A stretch of 64,000 nt of DNA from Actinomycetota bacterium (GTDB lineage Bacteria > Actinomycetota > Thermoleophilia > BMS3ABIN01): NCBI GenBank assembly GCA_023382335.1, contig JAMCPM010000011.1, forward strand, positions 1 through 64,000. The letters run 5' to 3'. The position numbers and the translations under genes are program-made. A model generated the notes under the pieces. That model worked only from the letters and a program-made list of their open reading frames with translations, did no database searches and was not told the DNA's origin. This document shows, piece by piece, positions 1-8,435 of this stretch. The number at the start of each line of letters is the position of its first letter. Within the stretch, counting starts at the first letter, position 1.

Positions 1-77
1 TACTCCTCCGCGTGATCGAGCACCATCCGTACTGCTCGTTCCTTCAACTCTTTGGGATACCGCTTTCGTGTGTTCAT
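1..77 (-). CDS. IS3-family transposase OrfA, N-terminal fragment (cut by window edge)
   Basis: Only about 25 codons are visible, reading MNTRKRYPKELKERAVR and then MVLDHAEE. This is the usual start of the IS3-family OrfA helix-turn-helix protein, which binds the element's ends and is normally joined to the OrfB DDE transposase by a programmed frameshift. The ATG lies about 50 bases inside the terminal repeat, as expected for this family. Everything after residue 25 is outside the window. Confidence 0.75.
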   Translation of the reverse strand, partial: MNTRKRYPKELKERAVRMVLDHAEE

Positions 78-127
78 GACTCCATCCTCTCAAAAGATGG
101 AGCCTCCAGGAAACCCGGGGCGATTCA
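1..127 (-). mobile_element. IS3-family insertion sequence, left end only
   Basis: On the minus strand the element begins at 127 with TGAATCGCCCCGGG, an IS3-family style terminal inverted repeat (TGAA start, GC-rich core). It continues for about 50 bases into an OrfA-type transposase start at 77 and leaves the window at position 1. The other end, the rest of OrfA/OrfB and the target duplication lie outside the window, so completeness cannot be judged. The element abuts the 3' end of the radical SAM gene, whose frame runs on into it. Confidence 0.75.
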
Positions 128-1491
128 ACTTCTTGGCCGAAATCGTACAGGTCGGGTGTTTCTGATAAAAAATCGAATATCCTAATAAGACCTTGCTTCC
201 AGGACTTACATCTAACGTAAGGGTCTGTTAATGCTGCGCCACTCTCAATAGTTTCACCACGACAATATGCTCCACAAAAATATCTAAAAGCACATCCTGA
301 ACATTTATTATTCATACTATTAACGTCCAAAGCACGTAACTGAGACAGTTTCGGAGAGGATTCCCAGATGTTCGTTATGGCATCGAGGCTTGAGGTGATT
401 GAGCCAGCGCAATAATTCTCGCGCATCATATTGATGCATGGGAAAATACTCCCATCTGAATCTATACAGCAGGTGCAACAACCTGTGCCGCAATATGAGA
501 ATTTTATTCCTGAACGTATCGCGTTTACAGTTTCAGCCAACAGAGTGGAACGAGTCAGTTGTTGTTTCTGGCTACTTAAACGAACCGCATTATAAAGAGC
601 CGTAAATTCTTCTCGATGATCAATTGTCTCCAATGTGCTGGATCGTGCTTTTCCAATGTCAACCAAACTAGAAGTAATCAGTTGTTCTGCTCCTAAATTC
701 TCCGCAAGTTCGATCATTGAGGGTACATGAGAAAGATTTCTTTTATGAATGGTGCATGAAATTCTTACGCGACAACCATTTTCTACCAATATGCCAACGG
801 CTCTAATTGCCGAATAATATGATTCTGTACTGCCGCGCAGCACTGCATGTGTCTCTGGATCTGCCCCATCAATGCTGACCTGAACTAATACATCATGATC
901 GGAAAGAAATTTTGCTAACTCTTCATCTATAAGGATGCCATTTGTATTGAGCCGGGGTGTTAGGCCGCCTTCACGAGCTGCAAGTACTGCCGTTTTCAAT
1001 TTGTTTGGTACTAGTGTTGGTTCGCCGCCGGATATTATTAGTAATCGAGGAGGCTGGGTAATTAAATGACTTATCTTTATAATTGCCGAGTGTATCTCGC
1101 TTTCTGATAACTCCTCCTTTTCATTGTTACTGCCGTTTGCGTAGCAGTGAACGCATCTAAGATTACACTTACGAGTTATGTTGAACGTCGCCATTGATAA
1201 GCACTTTGATGATTCAAAGGATTGTTCTTCTGGGGAGTTGCTTTCTTTTCCATTTCCATTCATGACTGACGCATTCAAGGTTTCATAAATATCCTCAACA
1301 TATTTACTAGCTTCAGAAAAACCAACTTTGAATTGTTGTGTAATTTTTTGAGCTGCCATATCTTTGGGGAATTTGTTCTCCAGGCAATCAATGGCTGTTC
1401 TTAAAGGACCGCCGCCGGCAAGAACAATAGGAAAATCGGGCCATAAGTAAGTGACCCTTCCATCTTTCCAATTGAATCTAAGATTTTTCAT
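1..1491 (-). CDS. radical SAM/SPASM peptide maturase with N-terminal PqqD-like domain; 3' end displaced by an IS
   Basis: Residues 1-75 look like a PqqD-type peptide-recognition (RRE) domain. Residues 109-116 carry the radical SAM CxxxCxxC motif (CNLRCVHC), followed by the GGEP segment (ISGGEPT, near 154). The SPASM-type C-terminus has Cys clusters at about 334-352 and 397-428 (CSGC, then FCGAYC, then a last Cys at 428) for auxiliary 4Fe-4S clusters. Enzymes of this build modify ribosomal peptides by radical chemistry. The ATG at 1491 follows a GAAAGG ribosome site and lies just downstream of a tiny peptide gene (1553-1633) on the same strand, its likely substrate. About 454 native codons end at the IS terminus at 127; from there the frame stays open through the IS to the window edge, so the true stop is lost. 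All recognisable Cys ligands are upstream of the junction, so activity may survive. Codon use is AT-richer than that of the chromosome core. Confidence 0.85.
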   Translation of the reverse strand, partial: MKNLRFNWKDGRVTYLWPDFPIVLAGGGPLRTAIDCLENKFPKDMAAQKITQQFKVGFSEASKYVEDIYETLNASVMNGNGKESNSPEEQSFESSKCLSMATFNITRKCNLRCVHCYANGSNNEKEELSESEIHSAIIKISHLITQPPRLLIISGGEPTLVPNKLKTAVLAAREGGLTPRLNTNGILIDEELAKFLSDHDVLVQVSIDGADPETHAVLRGSTESYYSAIRAVGILVENGCRVRISCTIHKRNLSHVPSMIELAENLGAEQLITSSLVDIGKARSSTLETIDHREEFTALYNAVRLSSQKQQLTRSTLLAETVNAIRSGIKFSYCGTGCCTCCIDSDGSIFPCINMMRENYCAGSITSSLDAITNIWESSPKLSQLRALDVNSMNNKCSGCAFRYFCGAYCRGETIESGAALTDPYVRCKSWKQGLIRIFDFLSETPDLYDFGQEVESPRVSWRLHLLRGWSHEHTKAVSQRVEGTSSTDGARSRGGV

Positions 1492-1507
1492 ATTGAATAC
1501 CTTTCAA

Positions 1508-1536
1508 GAGGTGGGGGCGGGAGCCGCCCCCACCTC
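1508..1536 (-). promoter_or_regulatory. stable intercistronic hairpin between precursor peptide and maturase
   Basis: Perfect 13-bp arms (GAGGTGGGGGCGG at 1508-1520 and its complement at 1524-1536) with a GAG loop. It sits between the stop of the small peptide (1553) and the maturase start (1491). No U-run follows on the minus strand, so it is better read as an RNA-stabilising or partial read-through element than as a full terminator. Such an arrangement commonly keeps precursor mRNA in excess of maturase mRNA. Confidence 0.6.
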
Positions 1537-1552
1537 GGGTCCGGCGTCGTAG

Positions 1553-1633
1553 TTACTTACCACTGTAGCGCGGAGCTGCAGCTTCAACCGTGGACTTACG
1601 AACGGTTACGCTAGACTTGAATACTTTAAGCAC
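1553..1633 (-). CDS. candidate RiPP precursor peptide, 26 residues
   Basis: A GTG start at 1633 is placed 8 bases after a strong AAGGAGG ribosome site, and the frame reads 26 codons to TAA. The peptide begins MLKVFKSSVTVRK and ends TVEAAAPRYSGK. It has no Cys, is rich in Lys/Ser/Val, and has one Tyr close to the C-terminus. An in-frame ATG at 1654 would add seven residues (MVKEVEK) but overlaps the ribosome site, so GTG is preferred. It lies directly upstream of the radical SAM/SPASM gene, has a good promoter of its own (1676-1704), and is followed by a hairpin. This is the standard gene order of RiPP loci (precursor, hairpin, maturase). The sequence matches no precursor family I know: it lacks the C-rich core of sactipeptides and the E...Y spacing of PqqA. 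Function is inferred from context only. Confidence 0.65.
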   Translation of the reverse strand: MLKVFKSSVTVRKSTVEAAAPRYSGK

Positions 1634-1675
1634 CTTTTCCACCTCCTTCACCATAATGGTTAATAAAGCAGATAA

Positions 1676-1704
1676 ATCCTAATTTTCTCAAGCGCATTTG
1701 TCAA
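1676..1704 (-). promoter_or_regulatory. promoter of the precursor peptide/maturase operon
   Basis: Minus-strand TTGACA (1699-1704), 17-bp spacer, TAGGAT (1676-1681). The consensus -35 and exact spacing predict a start near 1669, giving a leader of about 35 bases with the ribosome site at about 1641-1648. It is one of the best sigma-70-type promoters in the window. Confidence 0.65.
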
Positions 1705-1713
1705 GAGATAAAT

Positions 1714-1743
1714 ACTATTTTTAAGTTGTAAAAACTATTCTTA
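1714..1743. promoter_or_regulatory. two 10-bp direct repeats exactly 20 bp apart, likely activator sites
   Basis: ACTATTTTTA (1714-1723) and ACTATTCTTA (1734-1743) differ at one base and have a 20-bp period, about two helical turns. They lie immediately upstream of the minus-strand -35 box, where an activator would sit, and between the peptide operon and the divergent regulator gene starting at 1858. Binding by that regulator is an inference. Confidence 0.4.
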
Positions 1744-1857
1744 TCATTAATTTATTAAAAATAAACGAAGGATTTGCTTGTTTAACGCCGTATAAAAGGA
1801 TATTCTTTTCTTCCGGAGGGATATTTTGATCCGGGTAACTTTAAGGAGTGAGATATT

Positions 1858-2544
1858 TTGGTTGAACGAATTATGACGGTGGATGTTGAGGACTTGGACT
1901 GGCGTAACAGGGATGTCTACTTGGACTATATGTATGACTTGGACAGGAAAATGTTCGATCTGCCGGAAGGGGGGTCTTTGTTTCTAAATTTAGCGCGGGT
2001 GAAGCATATGGATAACGAGTATGCTTACAAATCAGTTGCTGCTTTGCAGTGTATTCAGGGCGAGGGTCCATTGAAATCAAAACATTTGGTCATTGTTCAG
2101 CCTTATGAAAATATATTGAAAAAAATCGAATATGCAGTTGATATTAATGATGAAGCGTTCATGTATATTAAGTCAGAAAATACTGAAGATCATGGGGAAT
2201 GTAACGTTTTGCGGTTTAAGGGCAAAGTAATCAATGCGACATATAAGAAAGTTTTAACCAAGCTTCTGGAGGAAGAAAAGCTGTTCGCAGCCAGTGACCT
2301 CATTAAAGTATTTAATAAGGGAAGTCTTCAGTTATATGCAGACGCGCTCAAAGAATTGTATGGCTGGGGGATTATTTGTAAGTTTGAGGAAAGTGGAAAA
2401 CCCGGTCGCCCTGTTTCAAAGTACTCTGCCTATTGGCCGGAGACCAAGAGTTTTTGGCCTCTGCCAAGTAAACCAATCATTTGGGATGTAGATGGTAGAA
2501 GATTTGCTCGTCCCACAAAGGCGAAGAAACTCAGCGCTGCTTAG
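1858..2544 (+). CDS. putative regulator with C-terminal winged-helix-like region, divergent from the RiPP operon
   Basis: 228 residues from a TTG start 8 bases after AAGGAG. I do not recognise a named family. The first ~110 residues (GGSLFLNLARVKHMDN, later KSKHLVIVQPYENI) alternate strands and helices in a way that resembles a STAS-like fold. Residues ~130-205 (KVLTKLLEEEKLFAASDLI, then ELYGWGII and GKPGRPVSKYS) look like a winged helix with a wing containing GRPVSKY. The gene is divergent from the precursor/maturase operon, with the paired direct repeats between them, so it is a plausible local regulator. An enzymatic or adaptor role in peptide processing is not excluded. The gene shares the lower GC content of the peptide operon. 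Confidence 0.6.
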   Translation: MVERIMTVDVEDLDWRNRDVYLDYMYDLDRKMFDLPEGGSLFLNLARVKHMDNEYAYKSVAALQCIQGEGPLKSKHLVIVQPYENILKKIEYAVDINDEAFMYIKSENTEDHGECNVLRFKGKVINATYKKVLTKLLEEEKLFAASDLIKVFNKGSLQLYADALKELYGWGIICKFEESGKPGRPVSKYSAYWPETKSFWPLPSKPIIWDVDGRRFARPTKAKKLSAA

Positions 2545-2588
2545 TCATTATTTGCAAAATAGTTCACAAACAGTTCGAGCTCTAATCA

Positions 2589-2690
2589 TCAGGAAATCTT
2601 CTTCGCAAGTCCCGTCAGCTGCTGTATCATAAAGCTGTTGCTGTTCAAATAACGACCGAACAGCTCGACCAGACTTGACTTATCGCTCTT
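2589..2690 (-). pseudogene. C-terminal remnant of an unidentified protein (copy 1 of a dispersed repeat)
   Basis: In the frame ending at the TGA at 2589 the minus strand reads SLVELFGRYLNSNSF and then MIQQLTGLAKKIS. No start or upstream domain is attached; the stretch begins where the PIN gene stops. A second copy at 8725-8816 matches 65 of 80 bases without gaps (2594-2673 against 8730-8809) and keeps the same frame and near-identical stop position. Protein-level conservation shows that both derive from a real gene, which I cannot name. Confidence 0.55.
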
Positions 2691-3096
2691 TTCCGAGCAA
2701 GGCGAAGAACTGGGCGGGAGTTATGCTGCTAATTCTTTTGTATTCCTTCAGGCCAAGAAGGTGCTTATCGCCGGACACAATGTAATCGGCTTTGGCTTTT
2801 ACAGCGCATTCAAGGATGCGGTTATCGGCCACATGCTTGATAATGTTCAGCCTGCTTGTCGGGCTCACGACATCCGCTGCATCATCAATGACAGAGATAG
2901 CGTCAGCGATTTCCTCTTTTGCAAAATTAAATTTGTCGGAGCCCAGGACTTTCATTATCTCTTTCAGGATATCGTGCGAGGTATAGAGCCGAAACTGCCT
3001 TCCTGGTCCGGTAGCCAGCTCCAAAAGTTGCTCCGGGATGCCTCCGAAACCAAGAGCCGAGATGTACACATTGGTATCAAAGACGGCCTTATTCAC
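2680..3096 (-). CDS. PIN-domain toxin ribonuclease (VapC/COG1569-like)
   Basis: 138 residues. The N-terminus KAVFDTNVYISALGFGG holds the first PIN acidic residue (Asp7), and EILKEI holds a middle Glu near residue 46. ADYIVSGDKHLLGL near residue 105 holds the Asp pair typical of PIN nucleases. These residues bind Mg2+/Mn2+ for RNA cleavage. The gene overlaps the 3' end of the upstream RHH gene by 8 bases, the usual arrangement of a type II toxin-antitoxin operon with the antitoxin first. The RNA target cannot be read from the sequence. Full length for the family. Confidence 0.85.
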   Translation of the reverse strand: MNKAVFDTNVYISALGFGGIPEQLLELATGPGRQFRLYTSHDILKEIMKVLGSDKFNFAKEEIADAISVIDDAADVVSPTSRLNIIKHVADNRILECAVKAKADYIVSGDKHLLGLKEYKRISSITPAQFFALLGKER

Positions 3097-3343
3097 CCCT
3101 TACCTCATGTATAATCCGGTCGAGTTCTTCTTCTGATGTAATATTCAGCCGCTTAAATGCCCGTTTGCCAGCGGCCCTTGCGTTCTGCCAGCGCCTTTCC
3201 CGCTGTATCTCTTCATACGCGGCAAACATGTCCCTGAATAGTTGGCTTTTGCTCTTTCTTTCGATCCTGGCCCGCCTTTCCATCTCTTTCATGATTTCCG
3301 GGGGCAGAGAGACGGTCATTGTTTTAGTCGTTCTTCCCAACAT
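3089..3343 (-). CDS. ribbon-helix-helix antitoxin/autorepressor of the PIN toxin
   Basis: 84 residues from ATG 3343, five bases after AGGAGG; a longer start would overlap that ribosome site. The N-terminal segment TKTMTVSLPPEIMKEMERRA is a CopG/Arc-type RHH fold (beta strand then two helices) that dimerises to bind DNA. The charged C-terminal half (NARAAGKRAFKRL, then EELDRIIHEVRGE) is the likely toxin-binding tail. It is translationally coupled to the toxin gene by an 8-base overlap. The upstream inverted repeats at 3368-3405 overlap its promoter and suggest autorepression. Confidence 0.85.
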   Translation of the reverse strand: MLGRTTKTMTVSLPPEIMKEMERRARIERKSKSQLFRDMFAAYEEIQRERRWQNARAAGKRAFKRLNITSEEELDRIIHEVRGE

Positions 3344-3363
3344 AATCACCTCCTGATGTTAAT

Positions 3364-3405
3364 ATATTACTCGGTCTTACTGAGTATGTCTCCAATTTAG
3401 ACCGA
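3364..3405 (-). promoter_or_regulatory. toxin-antitoxin promoter with nested operator inverted repeats
   Basis: Minus-strand -35 GAGACA (3387-3392), 17-bp spacer, -10 TAATAT (3364-3369). Two inverted repeats cover it: TCGGTCT (3371-3377) with AGACCGA (3399-3405), perfect over 7 bp, and TACTC (3368-3372) with GAGTA (3382-3386). Overlap with both promoter boxes fits repression by the RHH protein. Confidence 0.55.
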
Positions 3406-3419
3406 TATTGAACATCTGT

Positions 3420-3981
3420 CAATGGTTATCTTTCCGATCCTCGGCAGGGCTGTGGAAAACCTGCGCATCGCCAGCCTCTTAAATCGCCTATTAATTGCGT
3501 ATTAAGATGCTGGCCTCTTAACGCCAAGGTATTGATTTGCATATTGATCTCGGATCAAGACCCGAAATCAACACCCGAAATTTGGAAGCCAGGGTGTTGT
3601 ATTGCCTGTCGTAATCTGTTGCAACACCCGGTTGCAACAGGCAAATTCTAGATCGCTAGGGGCTTATAATGCCTATTACAATCAGCTGTAAGACCATATC
3701 GTAAGAGGCAAATCCCTTAAAAACAAAGCAAAAACAAAAGGGGGATTAACTGGATTTCCGGGGCATTTAGCCCAATCCAACCCAGCGTCGTCGGGGCTCA
3801 TTTTGTAGGACAAAATGAGCCCCGACGATGGCTCCCTTCGCTCGCCTTAATTCCCCTTTTTTCATAAAACTGGCGATCGTCGTCAATCCTGCTAAAAGAA
3901 ACAAGCAACCATTGTGAGCAAAATGAAGGGTTTGCTCATTAAAATTTTATTTGCTCCTGATCTTAAGCCTCCCTGGCGGTC
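3420..3981. other. gene-free, repeat-rich intergenic stretch (about 560 bp)
   Basis: No convincing coding frame on either strand. It holds a perfect hairpin at 3616-3640 (CTGTTGCAAC, 5-base loop, complement) with a competing longer pairing of TTGCCTGT (3602-3609) and ACAGGCAA (3637-3644). CCTCTTAA recurs near 3475 and 3513, and GCCTATTA also recurs. The 125-bp structured element is at 3736-3860. It separates the toxin-antitoxin pair from the end of the iron-transport operon. Confidence 0.6.
3736..3860. repeat. 125-bp element with terminal inverted repeats enclosing two hairpins (MITE-like or structured RNA)
   Basis: Terminal repeats AAAAGGGGGATTAA (3736-3749) and TTAATTCCCCTTTT (3847-3860) pair over 13 of 14 positions. 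Inside are hairpin A (GGATT/AATCC plus GGGC/GCCC, 3752-3778) and hairpin B with perfect 18-bp arms (3789-3806 and 3810-3827, loop AGG) that extend to about 21 bp. A T-run follows on the plus strand and a T-rich run flanks the other side on the minus strand, so it could terminate transcription both ways. No coding capacity. Confidence 0.5.
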
Positions 3982-4686
3982 CTAACCAGCATCGACGGAG
4001 ACGCTGCTTCTGGGACCGTGGTTTTCCTCGTGGATGCGGCCGTGCTCGAGGCGGATGATGCGGTCGCCGGCCTCGCCGACGCTGGGGTCATGGGTGACAA
4101 CGGCTAGGGTCATCCCCTGCTCGTACAGCTCTTTCAACAACTGCATCACCGCTATCTCGTTTTTCTCGTCCAGATTCCCCGTGGGCTCGTCGGCCAGTAA
4201 TATTTTGGGTTCGTTGATCAGCGCGCGGGCAATACAGACCCGCTGCTGTTCGCCGCCGGAAAGCTGCGACGGCAGGTGATCCAGGCGGTGGGCCATCCCT
4301 ACCAGCTCTAGGGCTTCGCGGGCCTCATCGGCGTCGGGCATGCTGTGGAAGTACTGGGACAGCATCACATTTTCAAAGGCGCTCAAGTAAGGGATGAGGT
4401 GAAACTGCTGAAATACCAAACCCACCATTTCCCGGCGGTACCGCGCCAACTGCGCTTCCGAGAGGCCGGCCAGCTCCATTCCGTCCACGGTCACTGATCC
4501 AGATGTGGGCGAGTCCAGTCCGCAGATAATATTTAGTAGCGTAGACTTGCCGGAGCCGGAAGGCCCCATGATCGACACCCATTCCCCCGCCGCTATCGAC
4601 AGCTCGATTCCGTCCAGGGCGCTTACCTGGCCGTATTTTTTGCTAAGGTTGCTTGCTTTTAATATCGATTGCATCTCTTTACTCAC
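3982..4686 (-). CDS. ABC transporter ATPase (MacB/LolD type) of an FTR1 iron-uptake operon
   Basis: 234 residues. Walker A GPSGSGKST (~41-49), Q-loop in VFQQFHL, signature LSGGEQQR (~141), Walker B ILLADEPTGNLD, and the switch His in VVTHD. The DEPTGNLD form and size are those of MacB/LolD/FtsE-type ATPases that drive FtsX-like permeases rather than substrate channels. It is the last gene of a four-gene minus-strand operon and overlaps the preceding permease by 8 bases. In FTR1 systems such as the Campylobacter p19/Ftr1 locus, ATPases of this kind accompany two MacB-like permeases, probably powering periplasmic steps of iron delivery. Confidence 0.9.
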   Translation of the reverse strand: MSKEMQSILKASNLSKKYGQVSALDGIELSIAAGEWVSIMGPSGSGKSTLLNIICGLDSPTSGSVTVDGMELAGLSEAQLARYRREMVGLVFQQFHLIPYLSAFENVMLSQYFHSMPDADEAREALELVGMAHRLDHLPSQLSGGEQQRVCIARALINEPKILLADEPTGNLDEKNEIAVMQLLKELYEQGMTLAVVTHDPSVGEAGDRIIRLEHGRIHEENHGPRSSVSVDAG

Positions 4687-5824
4687 CTTTCAAAATTATT
4701 GCCGGCTCCACAGCCAGAGCGCGCCGCACCGGCATCAAGGCTGACAGCAGGGCCAGGGCCAGTGCGCTTACGAGCACCACCGGGATTACTATTAAGTGCG
4801 GCAAGACGGCAGTGTCAAAAACAGACATTCCGATAACTTGCGCCATGGCCAGGCCAATCAGGTAGGCAATGGGGCCAGCGGCAGCTCCCAGGATCACGAC
4901 CTCGCTGAGAATGATGGCGGTAATGCTCCGACCTTCGGCGCCCAGGGATTTCATCAAGCCGATATCCCGCCGTCGCTCGGAAACGGAGTTAGCCAGCGAG
5001 GCGCTAACTGTAAGCCCGGAAATAATAAAAACCAGGGCCGTCACCAGGCTCATGAGTAGCTTCACCTTGAACAGCAGGCTATCCTCGCCCTGCGTTACCT
5101 GGCTCACGGTTTTGGCTCGGGCAGATGGCACTAGGCTTTCCAGGGCCGCAGACTCCTGGTCCAACCCGCCGCTCCCGGGAAGAACACTGGCTTCGACGAC
5201 GCTGACGCCGCCTGCCATGCCGGCAAGGGACTGGCCAAGGTCAAGGTCAACAAGCACCTGGTTGTCCTCAGACCCGCCAGTTGACAACGTGCCGGCCAGC
5301 TTCAGGACTTTCTGGGTTTGGCCGGCCTGAAGTGTGAACTGGTCGCCGGGAGCGAGACCCAGCCGCGCGGCCATCTCCGTGCCTATCAGCGCGCTTGCCT
5401 GGTCGTTTGCCATAGGAACGGTGCCGCTGATCTTCCACCAGGGATTAATCTTCATGGCTTGATCAAATACCGTCCCAGACATCACCGTTTGATGCCCGTT
5501 CACTGTCGCCAGGCTGTAAATAAAAGGAGCGTAGCCCTGCAGATTTGAGTCAGCGCCGCCATCCAGCGCCGCCAGCTGCGCCTGCGGGATTTGCCCCTGG
5601 CTTTGCAACGGCAGCCCCGCCGCATTCGGCCCGGCCCCGTTTCGGGGCAATAACAGGACGTTGCCGCCAAAGGCGGTCAGCTGCTCTTCGCTCTTTTGGC
5701 CGATATCCAGCGACAGATTCAGGAGCGCCGTTTCCAGAGCCAATCCCATCACGATGGTGATGATAACCAGCAGTGTGCGCCCGGGGCGGTGACGAAGCGA
5801 TCTTTGCAGCAAGCGTGGCAGCAT
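4679..5824 (-). CDS. MacB/FtsX-type ABC permease (second of pair)
   Basis: 381 residues: one N-terminal membrane helix (TLLVIITIVMGLALETALL, ~16-35), a large extracytoplasmic MacB-like core domain (~45-245) and three C-terminal helices (~255-370) carrying the ERRRDIGLMKSLGAEGRSI coupling segment that contacts the ATPase. It starts 2 bases after the stop of the upstream permease and overlaps the ATPase by 8 bases. A paralogue of its neighbour, so the two probably form a heterodimer. The substrate is not evident from the protein itself; the link to iron comes from the FTR1 gene at the head of the operon. Confidence 0.88.
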   Translation of the reverse strand: MLPRLLQRSLRHRPGRTLLVIITIVMGLALETALLNLSLDIGQKSEEQLTAFGGNVLLLPRNGAGPNAAGLPLQSQGQIPQAQLAALDGGADSNLQGYAPFIYSLATVNGHQTVMSGTVFDQAMKINPWWKISGTVPMANDQASALIGTEMAARLGLAPGDQFTLQAGQTQKVLKLAGTLSTGGSEDNQVLVDLDLGQSLAGMAGGVSVVEASVLPGSGGLDQESAALESLVPSARAKTVSQVTQGEDSLLFKVKLLMSLVTALVFIISGLTVSASLANSVSERRRDIGLMKSLGAEGRSITAIILSEVVILGAAAGPIAYLIGLAMAQVIGMSVFDTAVLPHLIVIPVVLVSALALALLSALMPVRRALAVEPAIILKGE

Positions 5825-5826
5825 GG

Positions 5827-7101
5827 CTATCCTGTCAATGCCTCGCTCGGATGGATGCGGATTGCCCGCCGGACCGGCAAGGCGCTTCCAATCAGGGCGA
5901 TTGCCAGGGCAAGAATTAACGAAAGCGGGAAAACAAGCAGGTTTATCGAGGCAGGCGTATCAAATACTTCCCTGCTGATCAATGCTGCGATCGCCAGGCC
6001 CAAGCCATAACCGGAAATGCCTCCAATAAGGCCGCTGAAACCCGCTTCCAGCAGGAGTTGGCCGGCGATATGGAAGTTCTCAGCCCCCAATGCTTTCATC
6101 AGGCCAATCTCGGTGCGGCGCTCCATCACAGTGGTGCTCATGGTCGCGGTCACTCCCAACGCCGAGGTGGCCACGGTTACACCGGCAATGAGGGCAAAAA
6201 GCAACTTCAGCTTGCCCAGGAATGCGCCTTCGGCGTCGGCAACCTGCCGCACCACCTTGGCCTGGCCATCCGGAAAAGCCTCGTTAATCTGGTAAGTGAT
6301 CGAGCCAACGTAGGGTGAGCAGTACCATTTTTCATAATCATCTTTTGGCAAGTCGTGAGGGTCACCCAGCAGCTCGGCGCGGTGCGCCAGGTTGTCGGGC
6401 GGCTTGGTAAGGGCGCTAATCTGAACTTTCGACACGGCCCCCGGCAGGCTCAGAAGGGATTGCGCCTCGGGCAGGTTCACGAAGAGCTGCCAATCTTCAA
6501 AACCGCCGGTGGAGACGATGCCGGAGACAGCTAATGTCTGGCGCAATTGCCTGTTGACTACGTTTAAGGTATCTCCCTTGGAGACGCCCAGGCGCTGGGC
6601 CAGCTCCCTGCCGACCAGGGCCTGTCCATCGCCGCCGGGCCAGTCTCCCTCTACCTGCCACCATGGCGATGTTTTTTCGACGCCGGTTCTGAAGGAGCTG
6701 CCCTTGCTCACCGGCAACTCCTGGTCAAACCAGGTGCCTGCCAGCGTCGCCTGTTCCCCGTTTATGCTCACGTTGCCATAAAGGAAAGGAGCAAAAGCCT
6801 GAACGTTGTTTTTCCAAAAGATGCCCTTCAGTTTGGGGAGATCCGTGTCCTTGAGGTAGGCCTGGTTTCCCACCTGGCCCACCGGGATGCCTGAAATCTC
6901 CACCGGCACCGCGTCCGATGTTGGCTCCAGGATAATGTTGGCGCCAAAGGAGCTCATCTCACGGCCAACTTTGTCTTCGATATCCATGGATACTGATAAC
7001 AGAGCAGACACCAGTGCCGTTCCCAGAAGCAGAGATACGGTGGCGACGGCAACGCGCCGGCGCCGCCTCATAAGCGAGTCTTTTACCAAGTGCAGAAGCA
7101 A
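5827..7101 (-). CDS. MacB/FtsX-type ABC permease (first of pair)
   Basis: 424 residues from a TTG start at 7101 (MLLHLVKDSLMRRRRR), five bases after AGGAG. A longer frame to 7227 would overlap the FTR1 gene and lacks homologous character. Topology as in its paralogue: helix 1 (VAVATVSLLLGTALVSALL), a large extracytoplasmic domain with TISTGG-like and TSPWWQVEG segments, then three helices with ERRTEIGLMKALGAENFHI, the ATPase-coupling region. The gene lies 17 bases downstream of FTR1. Compared with its partner it carries about 40 extra residues in the outer domain (PHDLPKDDYEKWYCSPYVG), including a lone Cys. Confidence 0.88.
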   Translation of the reverse strand: MLLHLVKDSLMRRRRRVAVATVSLLLGTALVSALLSVSMDIEDKVGREMSSFGANIILEPTSDAVPVEISGIPVGQVGNQAYLKDTDLPKLKGIFWKNNVQAFAPFLYGNVSINGEQATLAGTWFDQELPVSKGSSFRTGVEKTSPWWQVEGDWPGGDGQALVGRELAQRLGVSKGDTLNVVNRQLRQTLAVSGIVSTGGFEDWQLFVNLPEAQSLLSLPGAVSKVQISALTKPPDNLAHRAELLGDPHDLPKDDYEKWYCSPYVGSITYQINEAFPDGQAKVVRQVADAEGAFLGKLKLLFALIAGVTVATSALGVTATMSTTVMERRTEIGLMKALGAENFHIAGQLLLEAGFSGLIGGISGYGLGLAIAALISREVFDTPASINLLVFPLSLILALAIALIGSALPVRRAIRIHPSEALTG

Positions 7102-7118
7102 GCAGTCTCCTCTTCGGC

Positions 7119-8435
7119 CTAGCTGTTCATGAATTTTGACATCGCGTCGGGCTCGCTGAGCATGTCGTCCAGGCTTATCGTCAGGGTTTGGCCGGTGAGC
7201 GCGAGCGGCAGCGGGATCGGGTTGCATCCACCGCCGTAAGGTAGGGTGGACATATCAACAGGCGCATTGCAATTCTTGCAGATGAGCTGGTTGCCCTGCT
7301 GCATAAAGCCCATCGAAGGGCAGACCTGGCAGGCGTCGTATGCGGCCATGTAATTATCGCCGGCATAAACAACGAGGATGCGGACATCGCCGTTGCCATC
7401 GGGCAGCGTATATGAGTATTTGTGGATCATGTTATCGGCCAGGTCAGCAATAGGGATTTCCAGATTATTTTGGACTTCGCTTTTTGGCTGAGGGTCGGGG
7501 TCGTAACGGCTGGCGGCCACCACCACCGTGGCCGTGGCTAGGGCTACCACGATTGCCAAACCGACGCCGCCAGCCCCAATGCCCCACCTGCGGGCGCTGT
7601 TTGCCTTGGCGATGCGTTTACGGTGCTCAGCCTTCGAGTCATCCCTAGTCAAAACAGGCTTCACCTTGACGGCCTCTTTTAGAACCATCAGGGCAGGCAG
7701 ACCGATAAGCAACATCAGGATGAAAGCGGAGGTGCTGTCCTTTACTACCCAACCAATGATGCTCATCAAGGTGCCATTGAGGGTAAACAGCCCTGCCTCA
7801 GAAAACCCGTGTACGGCGCCGATCAGGAGCTTAACTACCAATATAAGCAGCACTATGCTAGTGACCCTGAAAAAGGTGGATAGGTTGATGCGGAGGCAGC
7901 CCTTGAACAGCAACACGCCGAATACTATTGCCAGTCCGATTCCCAAAATGCCGCCAATCAAGTTATAGGCCGGATTGGAAACAACGGTTCCACCCAACGC
8001 TAGTAGGAACAAGACTGTCTCAATCCCTTCTCTGCCAACCATGAAGAAGACAAATAGCAGCATGCCGATGGCAGATCCCAGCGTGACCGATTTACCAGAG
8101 GTCAGCCGGTCCAGCTTGTCTTCGATTTCCCTTTTTGGGCTCTTACCCTGGCGGAACATCCAGACGACCAGGGTGCCAACCATGAGGCCGGCAGTAAGCA
8201 TGGTAATGCCTTCGGTAAGGTCATTATCAGCATCAACGCCGATGATCTGAAAAGAGAAGGCCGCAGCTACACTGGCCATGACTGCAATGCAAACACCGAG
8301 CCAAACAAAGCGCCTCAGCTCGGGGCGCCCTGCTTGCTGTAGATATGCCAGAACGATGCCGACCACAAGGGTCGCTTCAATTCCTTCCCTGATGGCAATT
8401 ACAGTTGCTTCCAAAATGTTTGATAAAGAACCCAA
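7119..8435 (-). CDS. FTR1-family high-affinity iron permease fused to a DUF2318 iron-binding domain
   Basis: 438 residues from TTG 8435, six bases after GGAGG. Residues ~1-265 are an FTR1/EfeU permease with seven helices and two REGIE motifs (near residues 17 and 135) whose Glu residues carry Fe3+. After a further membrane helix (~287-310) the C-terminal 120 residues are a DUF2318 domain, with CQVCPSMGF, CKNCNAPVD and GGGCNPIPL, the Cys set of FtrD-like iron-sulfur membrane proteins. In other bacteria these are often separate genes (Ftr1, FtrD), so the fusion ties permeation to a redox or metal-handling domain. The operon continues with two MacB-like permeases and an ATPase. A DtxR-type box overlaps the promoter. 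Confidence 0.9.
   Translation of the reverse strand: MGSLSNILEATVIAIREGIEATLVVGIVLAYLQQAGRPELRRFVWLGVCIAVMASVAAAFSFQIIGVDADNDLTEGITMLTAGLMVGTLVVWMFRQGKSPKREIEDKLDRLTSGKSVTLGSAIGMLLFVFFMVGREGIETVLFLLALGGTVVSNPAYNLIGGILGIGLAIVFGVLLFKGCLRINLSTFFRVTSIVLLILVVKLLIGAVHGFSEAGLFTLNGTLMSIIGWVVKDSTSAFILMLLIGLPALMVLKEAVKVKPVLTRDDSKAEHRKRIAKANSARRWGIGAGGVGLAIVVALATATVVVAASRYDPDPQPKSEVQNNLEIPIADLADNMIHKYSYTLPDGNGDVRILVVYAGDNYMAAYDACQVCPSMGFMQQGNQLICKNCNAPVDMSTLPYGGGCNPIPLPLALTGQTLTISLDDMLSEPDAMSKFMNS

Follow-up and report, generated by a model that had tools for sequence, protein, structure and literature searches.

A candidate radical SAM RiPP cassette with a Cys-free 26-residue peptide, possibly damaged by an insertion sequence, in an Actinomycetota genome

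Introduction

When their substrates are peptides without Cys, radical SAM enzymes have generated several new types of bond, among them Lys-Trp and Arg-Tyr links, a Thr-Gln ether and cyclopropylglycine, and many radical SAM RiPP clusters are still uncharacterised. Among precursors whose Tyr is of interest here, PqqA has an E-x3-Y core and MftA ends in a C-terminal Val-Tyr. The streptococcal RaS-RiPPs of the RRR type, the ryptides, carry an Arg-Tyr crosslink (PMC13361665, PMC8326336). In a different setting, CapK and CapS are regulators of immune operons (PMC13373217; PDB 9z71, 9z72), and CapS S54E is monomeric and de-repressed (PMC13373217).

Here, we analysed a window of 64,000 nucleotides, the whole stretch of DNA under study, from an Actinomycetota bacterium (assembly GCA_023382335.1, contig JAMCPM010000011.1), near whose start a short ORF lies beside a radical SAM/SPASM gene. 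With a probability of roughly 0.7, we consider this locus a minimal, horizontally acquired radical SAM RiPP cassette whose substrate is the 26-residue peptide. It is best read as an uncharacterised radical SAM RiPP system, possibly IS-damaged, of a known type, whose peptide and enzyme appear from their sequences to match no named family.

Results

Organization of the cassette

The features of the locus are as follows.

1-127, minus strand: terminal 127 bp of an IS3-type element (TGAATCGCC...), where the contig ends
77-3, minus strand: start of the IS orfA, MNTRKRYPKELKERAVRMVLDHAEE, inside the IS end
128-1491, minus strand: radical SAM/SPASM peptide maturase, ~455 native residues, with both Pfam domains
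1508-1536, minus strand: perfect 13-bp G+C-rich hairpin between precursor and maturase, assessed by its fold against shuffles
1553-1633, minus strand: candidate precursor ORF, 26 codons, GTG start, MLKVFKSSVTVRKSTVEAAAPRYSGK
1642-1648, minus strand: Shine-Dalgarno (SD) sequence AAGGAGG of the precursor ORF, 8 nt from the GTG start
1676-1704, minus strand: sigma-70-type promoter TTGACA-17-TAGGAT, a consensus match at chance level for the region
1707-1745, no strand: imperfect dyad GATAAATACTATTTTTA/TAAAAACTATTCTTATC, 12/17 pairs, just upstream of the -35 box
1858-2544, plus strand: STAS-like and winged-helix (wHTH) transcription regulator, TTG start, by homology to eight proteins (L095-L102)

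The regulator is thus followed divergently by the precursor ORF, the hairpin and the radical SAM/SPASM gene. The preliminary description had recognized the ORF, the hairpin, the SPASM gene and the divergent regulator, all of which we recover, and the radical SAM/SPASM RiPP locus that it proposed, its precursor free of Cys, is still the best reading. This reading draws on the SD-led ORF, the hairpin, the full set of cluster ligands and a Cys-free peptide of 26-27 aa beside L089, the closest relative elsewhere. The maturase span given in that description was not confirmed, its PqqD-like domain is unproven, and its PQQ- or mycofactocin-like cofactor found no support.

The cassette has a GC content of 41% against 57% for the rest, and was therefore probably acquired horizontally. 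No orthologs were found in the ~900 phylum genomes searched, and the 149 relatives and the 396 phylum, 399 class and 388 second-class genomes yielded only paralogs of ~25-37% identity. No Rfam match was found in positions 1-4000. From the IS to 2.6 kb there is no protease or exporter gene, which counts against our reading.

Maturase clipped by an insertion sequence

The maturase contains Radical_SAM (2.9e-21) and SPASM (1.6e-5) domains, both above the Pfam cut-off, and a C109xxxC113xxC116 radical SAM motif. Its SPASM region follows the seven-Cys pattern CX9-15GX4C - CX2CX5CX3C - C at canonical spacing, with C334-X12-G-X4-C352, C397-X2-C-X5-C-X3-C410 and C428 (334/352/397/400/406/410/428), and the Cys columns are invariant or almost so in 20 homologues, which makes the enzyme a member of the radical SAM/SPASM group with all the cysteines noted earlier. 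A PADLOC match to viperin is at superfamily level only and was set aside, and a single-sequence fold of the maturase (pLDDT 31) was unusable.

The gene had been described as spanning 1-1491, but bases 1-127 belong to the IS: ten other contigs of this genome start or end with an identical 127-128 bp, joined to different flanking DNA each time. The IS end is joined in frame after maturase residue ~455, native coding stopping at ~128, so the maturase is clipped and its natural C-terminus is missing. No matching other IS junction with the expected AGT/AAGT duplication is present in the assembly. Both the IS clipping and the foreign composition of the island had been missed in the preliminary description.

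Since the 3′ end of the maturase is lost, the locus may be dead, which weighs against our reading. The same kind of system might survive as a decayed remnant, in which the IS insertion has inactivated the maturase and the peptide now goes unmodified, a serious though tentative alternative that draws on the replacement of the natural C-terminus by the in-frame IS end, the missing second junction and the want of orthologs in near relatives to maintain the locus. Against it, all cluster ligands are intact, the SPASM region is preserved up to the last conserved helix of L089, the closest maturase outside the genome, which extends only ~15 residues past the cut point, and the frames of precursor and regulator, the SD and the promoter are all undamaged.

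Candidate precursor and hairpin

The candidate precursor is a peptide of 26 aa with a net charge of +5, no Cys and a single Tyr near its C-terminus, predicted to be translated from a strong-SD ORF (1553-1633) adjoining the modifying enzyme, as expected of a RiPP. Initiation at an upstream ATG (1654) in the same frame would lengthen the product to 33 aa, but no SD precedes that codon. The 81-bp ORF with an excellent ribosome site reported previously is confirmed. With SD defined as AAGGAGG at a spacing of 4-12 nt, dinucleotide shuffling of the intergenic sequence produced an SD-led ORF of precursor size in 0.2% of cases, and the fraction ranged over 0.2-5% from stricter to looser SD definitions. 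Its codon usage lies slightly above that of shuffled sequence (p ~0.05). The promoter, described as strong, is present, but promoter-like sites occur at about chance frequency in this AT-rich region (1 observed against 1.2 expected).

The peptide matches no precursor family in NCBIfam, Pfam or PHROG, in agreement with the preliminary description, and has no relatives in 149 genomes, 72,556 plasmids and 50,697 phage records; related genomes gave matches of 12-13 bits only, at noise level. Conserved PRYSGK peptides beside homologous enzymes, suggested as a signature to be sought, did not turn up in the phylum genomes searched or in the collections of plasmids and phages. The precursor has no recognisable relative at any second locus, which speaks against our reading. 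The earlier exclusion of thioether chemistry stands for this Cys-free peptide, provided that it is the substrate.

The 13-bp hairpin noted earlier is much more stable than shuffles (z -4.05) and is the only such hairpin in the window; it lacks a U-tract and likely serves as a 3′-end stabiliser or weak attenuator. The 26-codon ORF could instead be a regulatory leader peptide whose translation controls the hairpin and thereby maturase expression, with the maturase acting on a protein or distant peptide elsewhere. This seems unlikely: a short basic ORF does lead into a very stable hairpin placed immediately ahead of the next gene, and the SD-led ORF and hairpin fold jointly with z -3.6, but the missing U-tract, the location of the scan's only terminator-like site inside the maturase gene and the lack of an evident alternative anti-hairpin argue against it, as does the usual adjacency of radical SAM/SPASM genes of this size to a peptide substrate (PMC9062424).

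Relatives and named families

L089 lies on a contig from human faeces that was deposited as Bacteriophage sp. (MT837634.1), and it can be aligned along its entire length with the window maturase (28% identity, tblastn E 6e-36; 144 bits against 111 bits for the next relative). Directly after its gene comes an SD-led, Cys-free, Tyr-containing ORF of 26-27 aa, and then an MFS exporter gene. In both loci the enzyme thus adjoins an equally long peptide that has Tyr but no Cys and begins with ML, whereas the L089 peptide lies downstream of the enzyme gene and has a net charge of -1 rather than +5. Nor is the L089 peptide alignable to the window precursor (p 0.17), which tells against our reading. 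The L089 regulators are of the RRNPP/RNPP type (HTH_3 and RNPP_C) rather than STAS-wHTH. L089 also aligns nearly full length, N-terminal region included, to the StsB sactipeptide maturase model. Of the farther relatives with a similar size and an extended N-terminus, most likewise have one adjacent small peptide, and the peptides of farther relatives mostly contain Cys. The flanks searched around one relative, L132, held no small ORF led by an SD, another point against our reading. A scan of the genome contig collection returned one unrelated, sulfatase-maturase-like match (L009), and the viral contig collection, scanned with the maturase, L089 and a two-row profile, returned none.

In a phylogenetic tree, the maturase forms a long isolated branch outside the two large groups, one MftC-like in features and one adjoining hemB, and it reaches no NCBIfam equivalog cut-off. 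As the enzyme lies outside the named families, its reaction is not predictable from them. The StsB family (NF045574) likewise comprises radical SAM/SPASM peptide maturases, and its model covers residues 95-431, scoring 98.8 bits where the cut-off is 625; unlike StsB substrates, the window precursor has no Cys and so cannot form a sactionine, and the absence of a core Cys equally excludes a sactipeptide or ranthipeptide. The ryptides resemble our locus in a small Cys-free substrate, an Arg adjoining Tyr and a cassette of peptide and radical SAM enzyme, but the RRR motif and the Rgg/SHP pair are absent here, and by its precursor the locus does not qualify as a ryptide system.

The small ORF might be fortuitous and the enzyme a non-RiPP SPASM protein, for example of the sulfatase- or quinohemoprotein-maturase type. 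The ORF has no conservation support and the shuffles do yield such ORFs at 0.2-5%, but no sulfatase or amine dehydrogenase gene lies nearby, the scores for those maturase families fall far under cut-off and the L089 locus is arranged in parallel, making this explanation improbable. Least credible of all is a Tyr-derived redox cofactor as in PQQ or mycofactocin, favored earlier: the single Tyr lies near the C-terminus and MftC (TIGR03962), which with PqqE (TIGR02109) belongs to the same superfamily, is the best-scoring NCBIfam model, but the maturase reaches only half of the MftC cut-off (133/265 bits) and one fifth of that of PqqE (77/381 bits) and is thus neither, falls outside the MftC-like group, is accompanied in the cassette by nothing like PqqB/C/D/F or MftB/D/E/F and nearby by no other cofactor gene, and faces a peptide core with neither the PqqA nor the MftA motif.

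Proposed mechanism

We propose the following model, drawn from the sequence, for substrate-enzyme pairing, recognition by an RRE, chemistry, regulation and export. The 26-residue peptide, presumably translated strongly, would be the substrate. Residues 1 to ~13, LKVFKSSVTVRK, would form an alternating, strand-prone leader and pair with a divergent RRE made up of the first ~95 maturase residues. The CxxxCxxC cluster would generate a 5′-deoxyadenosyl radical that abstracts hydrogen from the C-terminal core, STVEAAAPRYSGK, where a carbon-centred modification is probably formed; as no Cys is available, the product would carry an altered backbone or a new link, either carbon-carbon or carbon-oxygen, with the Arg-Tyr neighbours, Thr, Val and Lys as plausible sites. 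The hairpin would keep the precursor message above the maturase message, and the promoter would be controlled by the divergent regulator, perhaps via the dyad at 1707-1745, a candidate operator. A later IS insertion removed the last residues of the maturase and parted the cassette from downstream DNA, such that the cassette may by now have lost some or all of its activity.

Residues 1-95 are a possible RRE. The PqqD-like domain proposed earlier was not recovered: a genome-wide search with PF05402 did not match the maturase, Pfam found nothing in the isolated 95 residues, and profile-profile comparison (hhalign) with two PqqD proteins that this genome encodes was null; among eight pairwise comparisons, one was marginal (p 0.048). 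A PqqD-like identity is unproven and agrees only with the position and with the secondary structure predicted by a very low-confidence model, strands and then three helices. Divergent fused RREs are known to escape sequence tools (PMC7470986).

The divergent regulator

The regulator homologues match MarR/HTH_24 above cut-off and STAS_2 weakly, a joint profile aligns with the CapS structures 9z71 and 9z72 over 160 and 148 profile positions (E 0.02), and a low-confidence model (pLDDT 48) matches RsbS, giving weak support; a DUF4325 HMM did not match. Each line is weak alone, and they agree mutually in pointing to the STAS and wHTH architecture of CapS, here encoded divergently beside the cassette and with weak co-linear similarity. 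Unlike CapS, the regulator has in the alignment a Glu (MDNEY) at the position of the conserved phospho-acceptor Ser, and the first 4 kb encode no cognate CapK-like kinase, while the region between the divergent genes contains no TTAA-N1-TTAA or TTAA-N10-TTAA operator.

It is conceivable, if rather doubtful, that the locus represents a separate radical SAM RiPP class, distantly including gut L089, with a Cys-independent Tyr- or Arg-centred change on 26-residue peptides and, in this lineage, a CapS-like regulator made kinase-independent through Ser-to-Glu. The significance is limited to one IS-clipped locus in one genome, where a regulator of the CapS type, familiar from operons of immunity, would adjoin a peptide-modification cassette.

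A radical SAM/SPASM maturase clipped by an insertion sequence

We judged the locus to be of an ordinary kind, with an uncharacterised enzyme and a putative precursor, and it contained the following features:

1-127, contig edge: insertion sequence (IS) end, with identical copies at ten other contig edges
1491 to ~128, − strand: radical SAM/SPASM maturase gene, ATG start
1536-1508, − strand: 13-bp perfect hairpin between the candidate precursor ORF and the maturase gene
1633-1553, − strand: 26-codon candidate precursor ORF, GTG start, peptide MLKVFKSSVTVRKSTVEAAAPRYSGK
1648-1642, − strand: perfect Shine-Dalgarno AAGGAGG ahead of the 26-codon ORF
1704-1676, − strand: promoter TTGACA-17-TAGGAT, consensus match
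1707-1745: imperfect dyad between the regulator and the cassette
1858 onwards, + strand: regulator gene, 228 codons, divergent from the cassette

The preliminary description placed a maturase with radical SAM and SPASM cysteines at 1-1491. The cysteines were confirmed, with the Radical_SAM and SPASM Pfam domains both above cut-off and a complete ligand set (CX12GX4C - CX2CX5CX3C - C) conserved in 20 aligned homologues, but the span was not: bases 1-127 are an IS end, and therefore the maturase is clipped after residue ~455, its reading frame continuing into the IS. These 127 bases, which include the start of an IS3-type orfA, recur at ten further contig termini in the source genome (C2, C6 twice, C7, C8, C14, C19 twice, C20 and C21), joined to different DNA each time. 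The second junction of this insertion, which should carry an AGT or AAGT duplication, is absent from the assembly. The clipped maturase keeps every cluster ligand; its function may have been lost but need not have been, because the homologous enzyme of L089 (MT837634, a human faecal contig filed as phage) extends just ~15 residues beyond the clip point in the alignment. This high-copy element breaks the assembly of the source genome, and a second, degenerate copy, 85% identical, lies inside C8:124127.

The maturase reached none of the curated NCBIfam cut-offs, the best being MftC at 133/265 bits, and the Tyr-derived PQQ- or mycofactocin-like cofactor proposed earlier is an unlikely product. 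In a 90-row core tree, its branch was very long (2.42) and fell outside the two large groups, and its nearest row by path was L089 (4.6), joined without support; owing to the long branches, we are unsure of this placement.

The PqqD-like domain of the preliminary description remains putative. The position and length of the N-terminal domain fit a fused leader-binding domain (RRE), and its predicted secondary structure, strands and then three helices, is RRE-compatible (model pLDDT 31), but neither PF05402 nor any other Pfam family matched it, and profile-profile comparison with two stand-alone PqqD proteins of the source genome was null. Of eight pairwise comparisons, the best one to a PqqD protein gave p 0.048. 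According to the RRE-Finder authors, fused RREs are often missed by PF05402 and pairwise searches (PMC7470986). A leader-binding domain is favoured in the L089 enzyme, because its match to the StsB model covers residues 9 to 438.

A Cys-free candidate precursor

The small ORF with its excellent ribosome site exceeded chance (0.2% of intergenic shuffles with AAGGAGG, 1.5% with GGAGG), but the strong promoter described with it did not, one match being found against 1.2 expected in this AT-rich region. An in-frame ATG upstream of the GTG (33 aa product) has no ribosome site. The first half of the peptide is most likely the leader, and STVEAAAPRYSGK the core. The 13-bp hairpin first described is present and pairs perfectly; it is the sole such hairpin in the window, its folding beats that of shuffled sequences by 4 standard deviations, and it probably sets the precursor message above the maturase message.

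Thioether formation stayed excluded, provided that the Cys-free peptide is the substrate. Among known radical SAM modifications that need no Cys are the Arg-Tyr linkage in ryptides (PMC13361665, PMC8326336), Lys-Trp, the Thr-Gln ether and the cyclopropylglycine formed from Val (PMC9062424); no evidence at the locus picks one over another.

L089 was the closest maturase relative in the collections searched (tblastn, E 6e-36); an AGGAGG-led 26-27 aa ORF, MMLASAQTGQKSESYTEVYGLGNFKEY, directly follows its maturase gene and is itself followed by an MFS transporter, with RNPP-type regulators upstream. Like the window peptide, the L089 peptide is Cys-free and contains Tyr, but the two are not alignable (p 0.17), and the phage collection yielded no relative beyond the L089 peptide itself. 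Small ORFs beside distant radical SAM relatives contain Cys: 38 aa in L126 (MT836680) and L130 (E. coli plasmid), 45 aa in L129, 49 aa in L134, 50 aa in L093 (Anaerococcus) and two ORFs in L128. Candidates flanking the L127 gene were weak, and none was found beside those of L131 and L132. The two mutually closest maturases are thus the pair whose 26-residue neighbours are Cys-free, which is suggestive (n = 2).

In L130 (CP099011, 2479-4107), the ORF MSYSKPTVLAKSSTYMAQCRPNSKPSGRPCNPPGPSGR precedes the radical SAM gene with a recombinase gene near, a possible plasmid-borne RiPP. In L126, a gut contig filed as phage, the Cys-rich, subtilosin-like peptide lies upstream of an AlbA-like maturase (174 bits, below the cut-off of 850). 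The 647-711 aa proteins of L042 and L056 read N-terminally as a SAM methyltransferase fused to the radical SAM domain.

The divergent regulator

The divergent regulator gene was present as first described. Pfam gave no match for the protein alone. Its homologues L095-L102 (same phylum, family f21) are weak, with E values in one genome of 7e-5 to 8e-4; they score above cut-off for MarR/HTH_24 and below threshold for STAS_2. A gene read as STAS plus GHKL-like ATPase lies just upstream of the conserved STAS-wHTH gene in L095 and L098 and beside it in L099, a CapK/CapS-like pair, an arrangement described in PMC13373217. A profile including the window regulator matched 9z71 and 9z72 co-linearly (E 0.02), which we infer from lengths, names and the Ser region to be the CapS structures of that study, and a low-confidence regulator model matched the STAS protein RsbS (Foldseek probability 0.98, E 0.11). 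Individually weak, these items jointly support a putative STAS-wHTH regulator.

At the CapS phospho-serine position, L095 has Ser (MDYSF) whereas the window regulator has Glu (MDNEY); engineered S54E CapS is a monomer that has lost repression (PMC13373217). The first 4 kb of the window contain no kinase gene, so CapK-type phosphorylation is probably not how the regulator works. TTAA half-sites at CapS spacing (1 or 10 bp) were not found between the genes.

Origin and other loci

The cassette (128-2560) has 41% GC versus 57% for 4001-64000, and no maturase or regulator orthologs were found in near relatives, in genome searches confined to one phylum, probably Actinomycetota judging by mycofactocin-type neighbours; the cassette thus fits horizontal acquisition.

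A PIN_3 toxin gene (2680-3349, − strand), with an RHH antitoxin gene just upstream in a VapBC-like arrangement, converges on the regulator gene. The operon at 3982-8435 (− strand) encodes an FTR1 iron permease fused to an FtrD-like domain, two MacB/FtsX permeases and an ABC ATPase, probably an iron-uptake system. Elsewhere in the source genome, the gene for a stand-alone PqqD-like protein of 113 aa lies just ahead of one for a 366-aa radical SAM protein, another possible RiPP-type pair (L124, C6:393949 region), and an HprK-related kinase gene, a PqqD-like lasso-type chaperone gene and a further ORF (L123, C8:61849 region) resemble a lasso peptide cluster.
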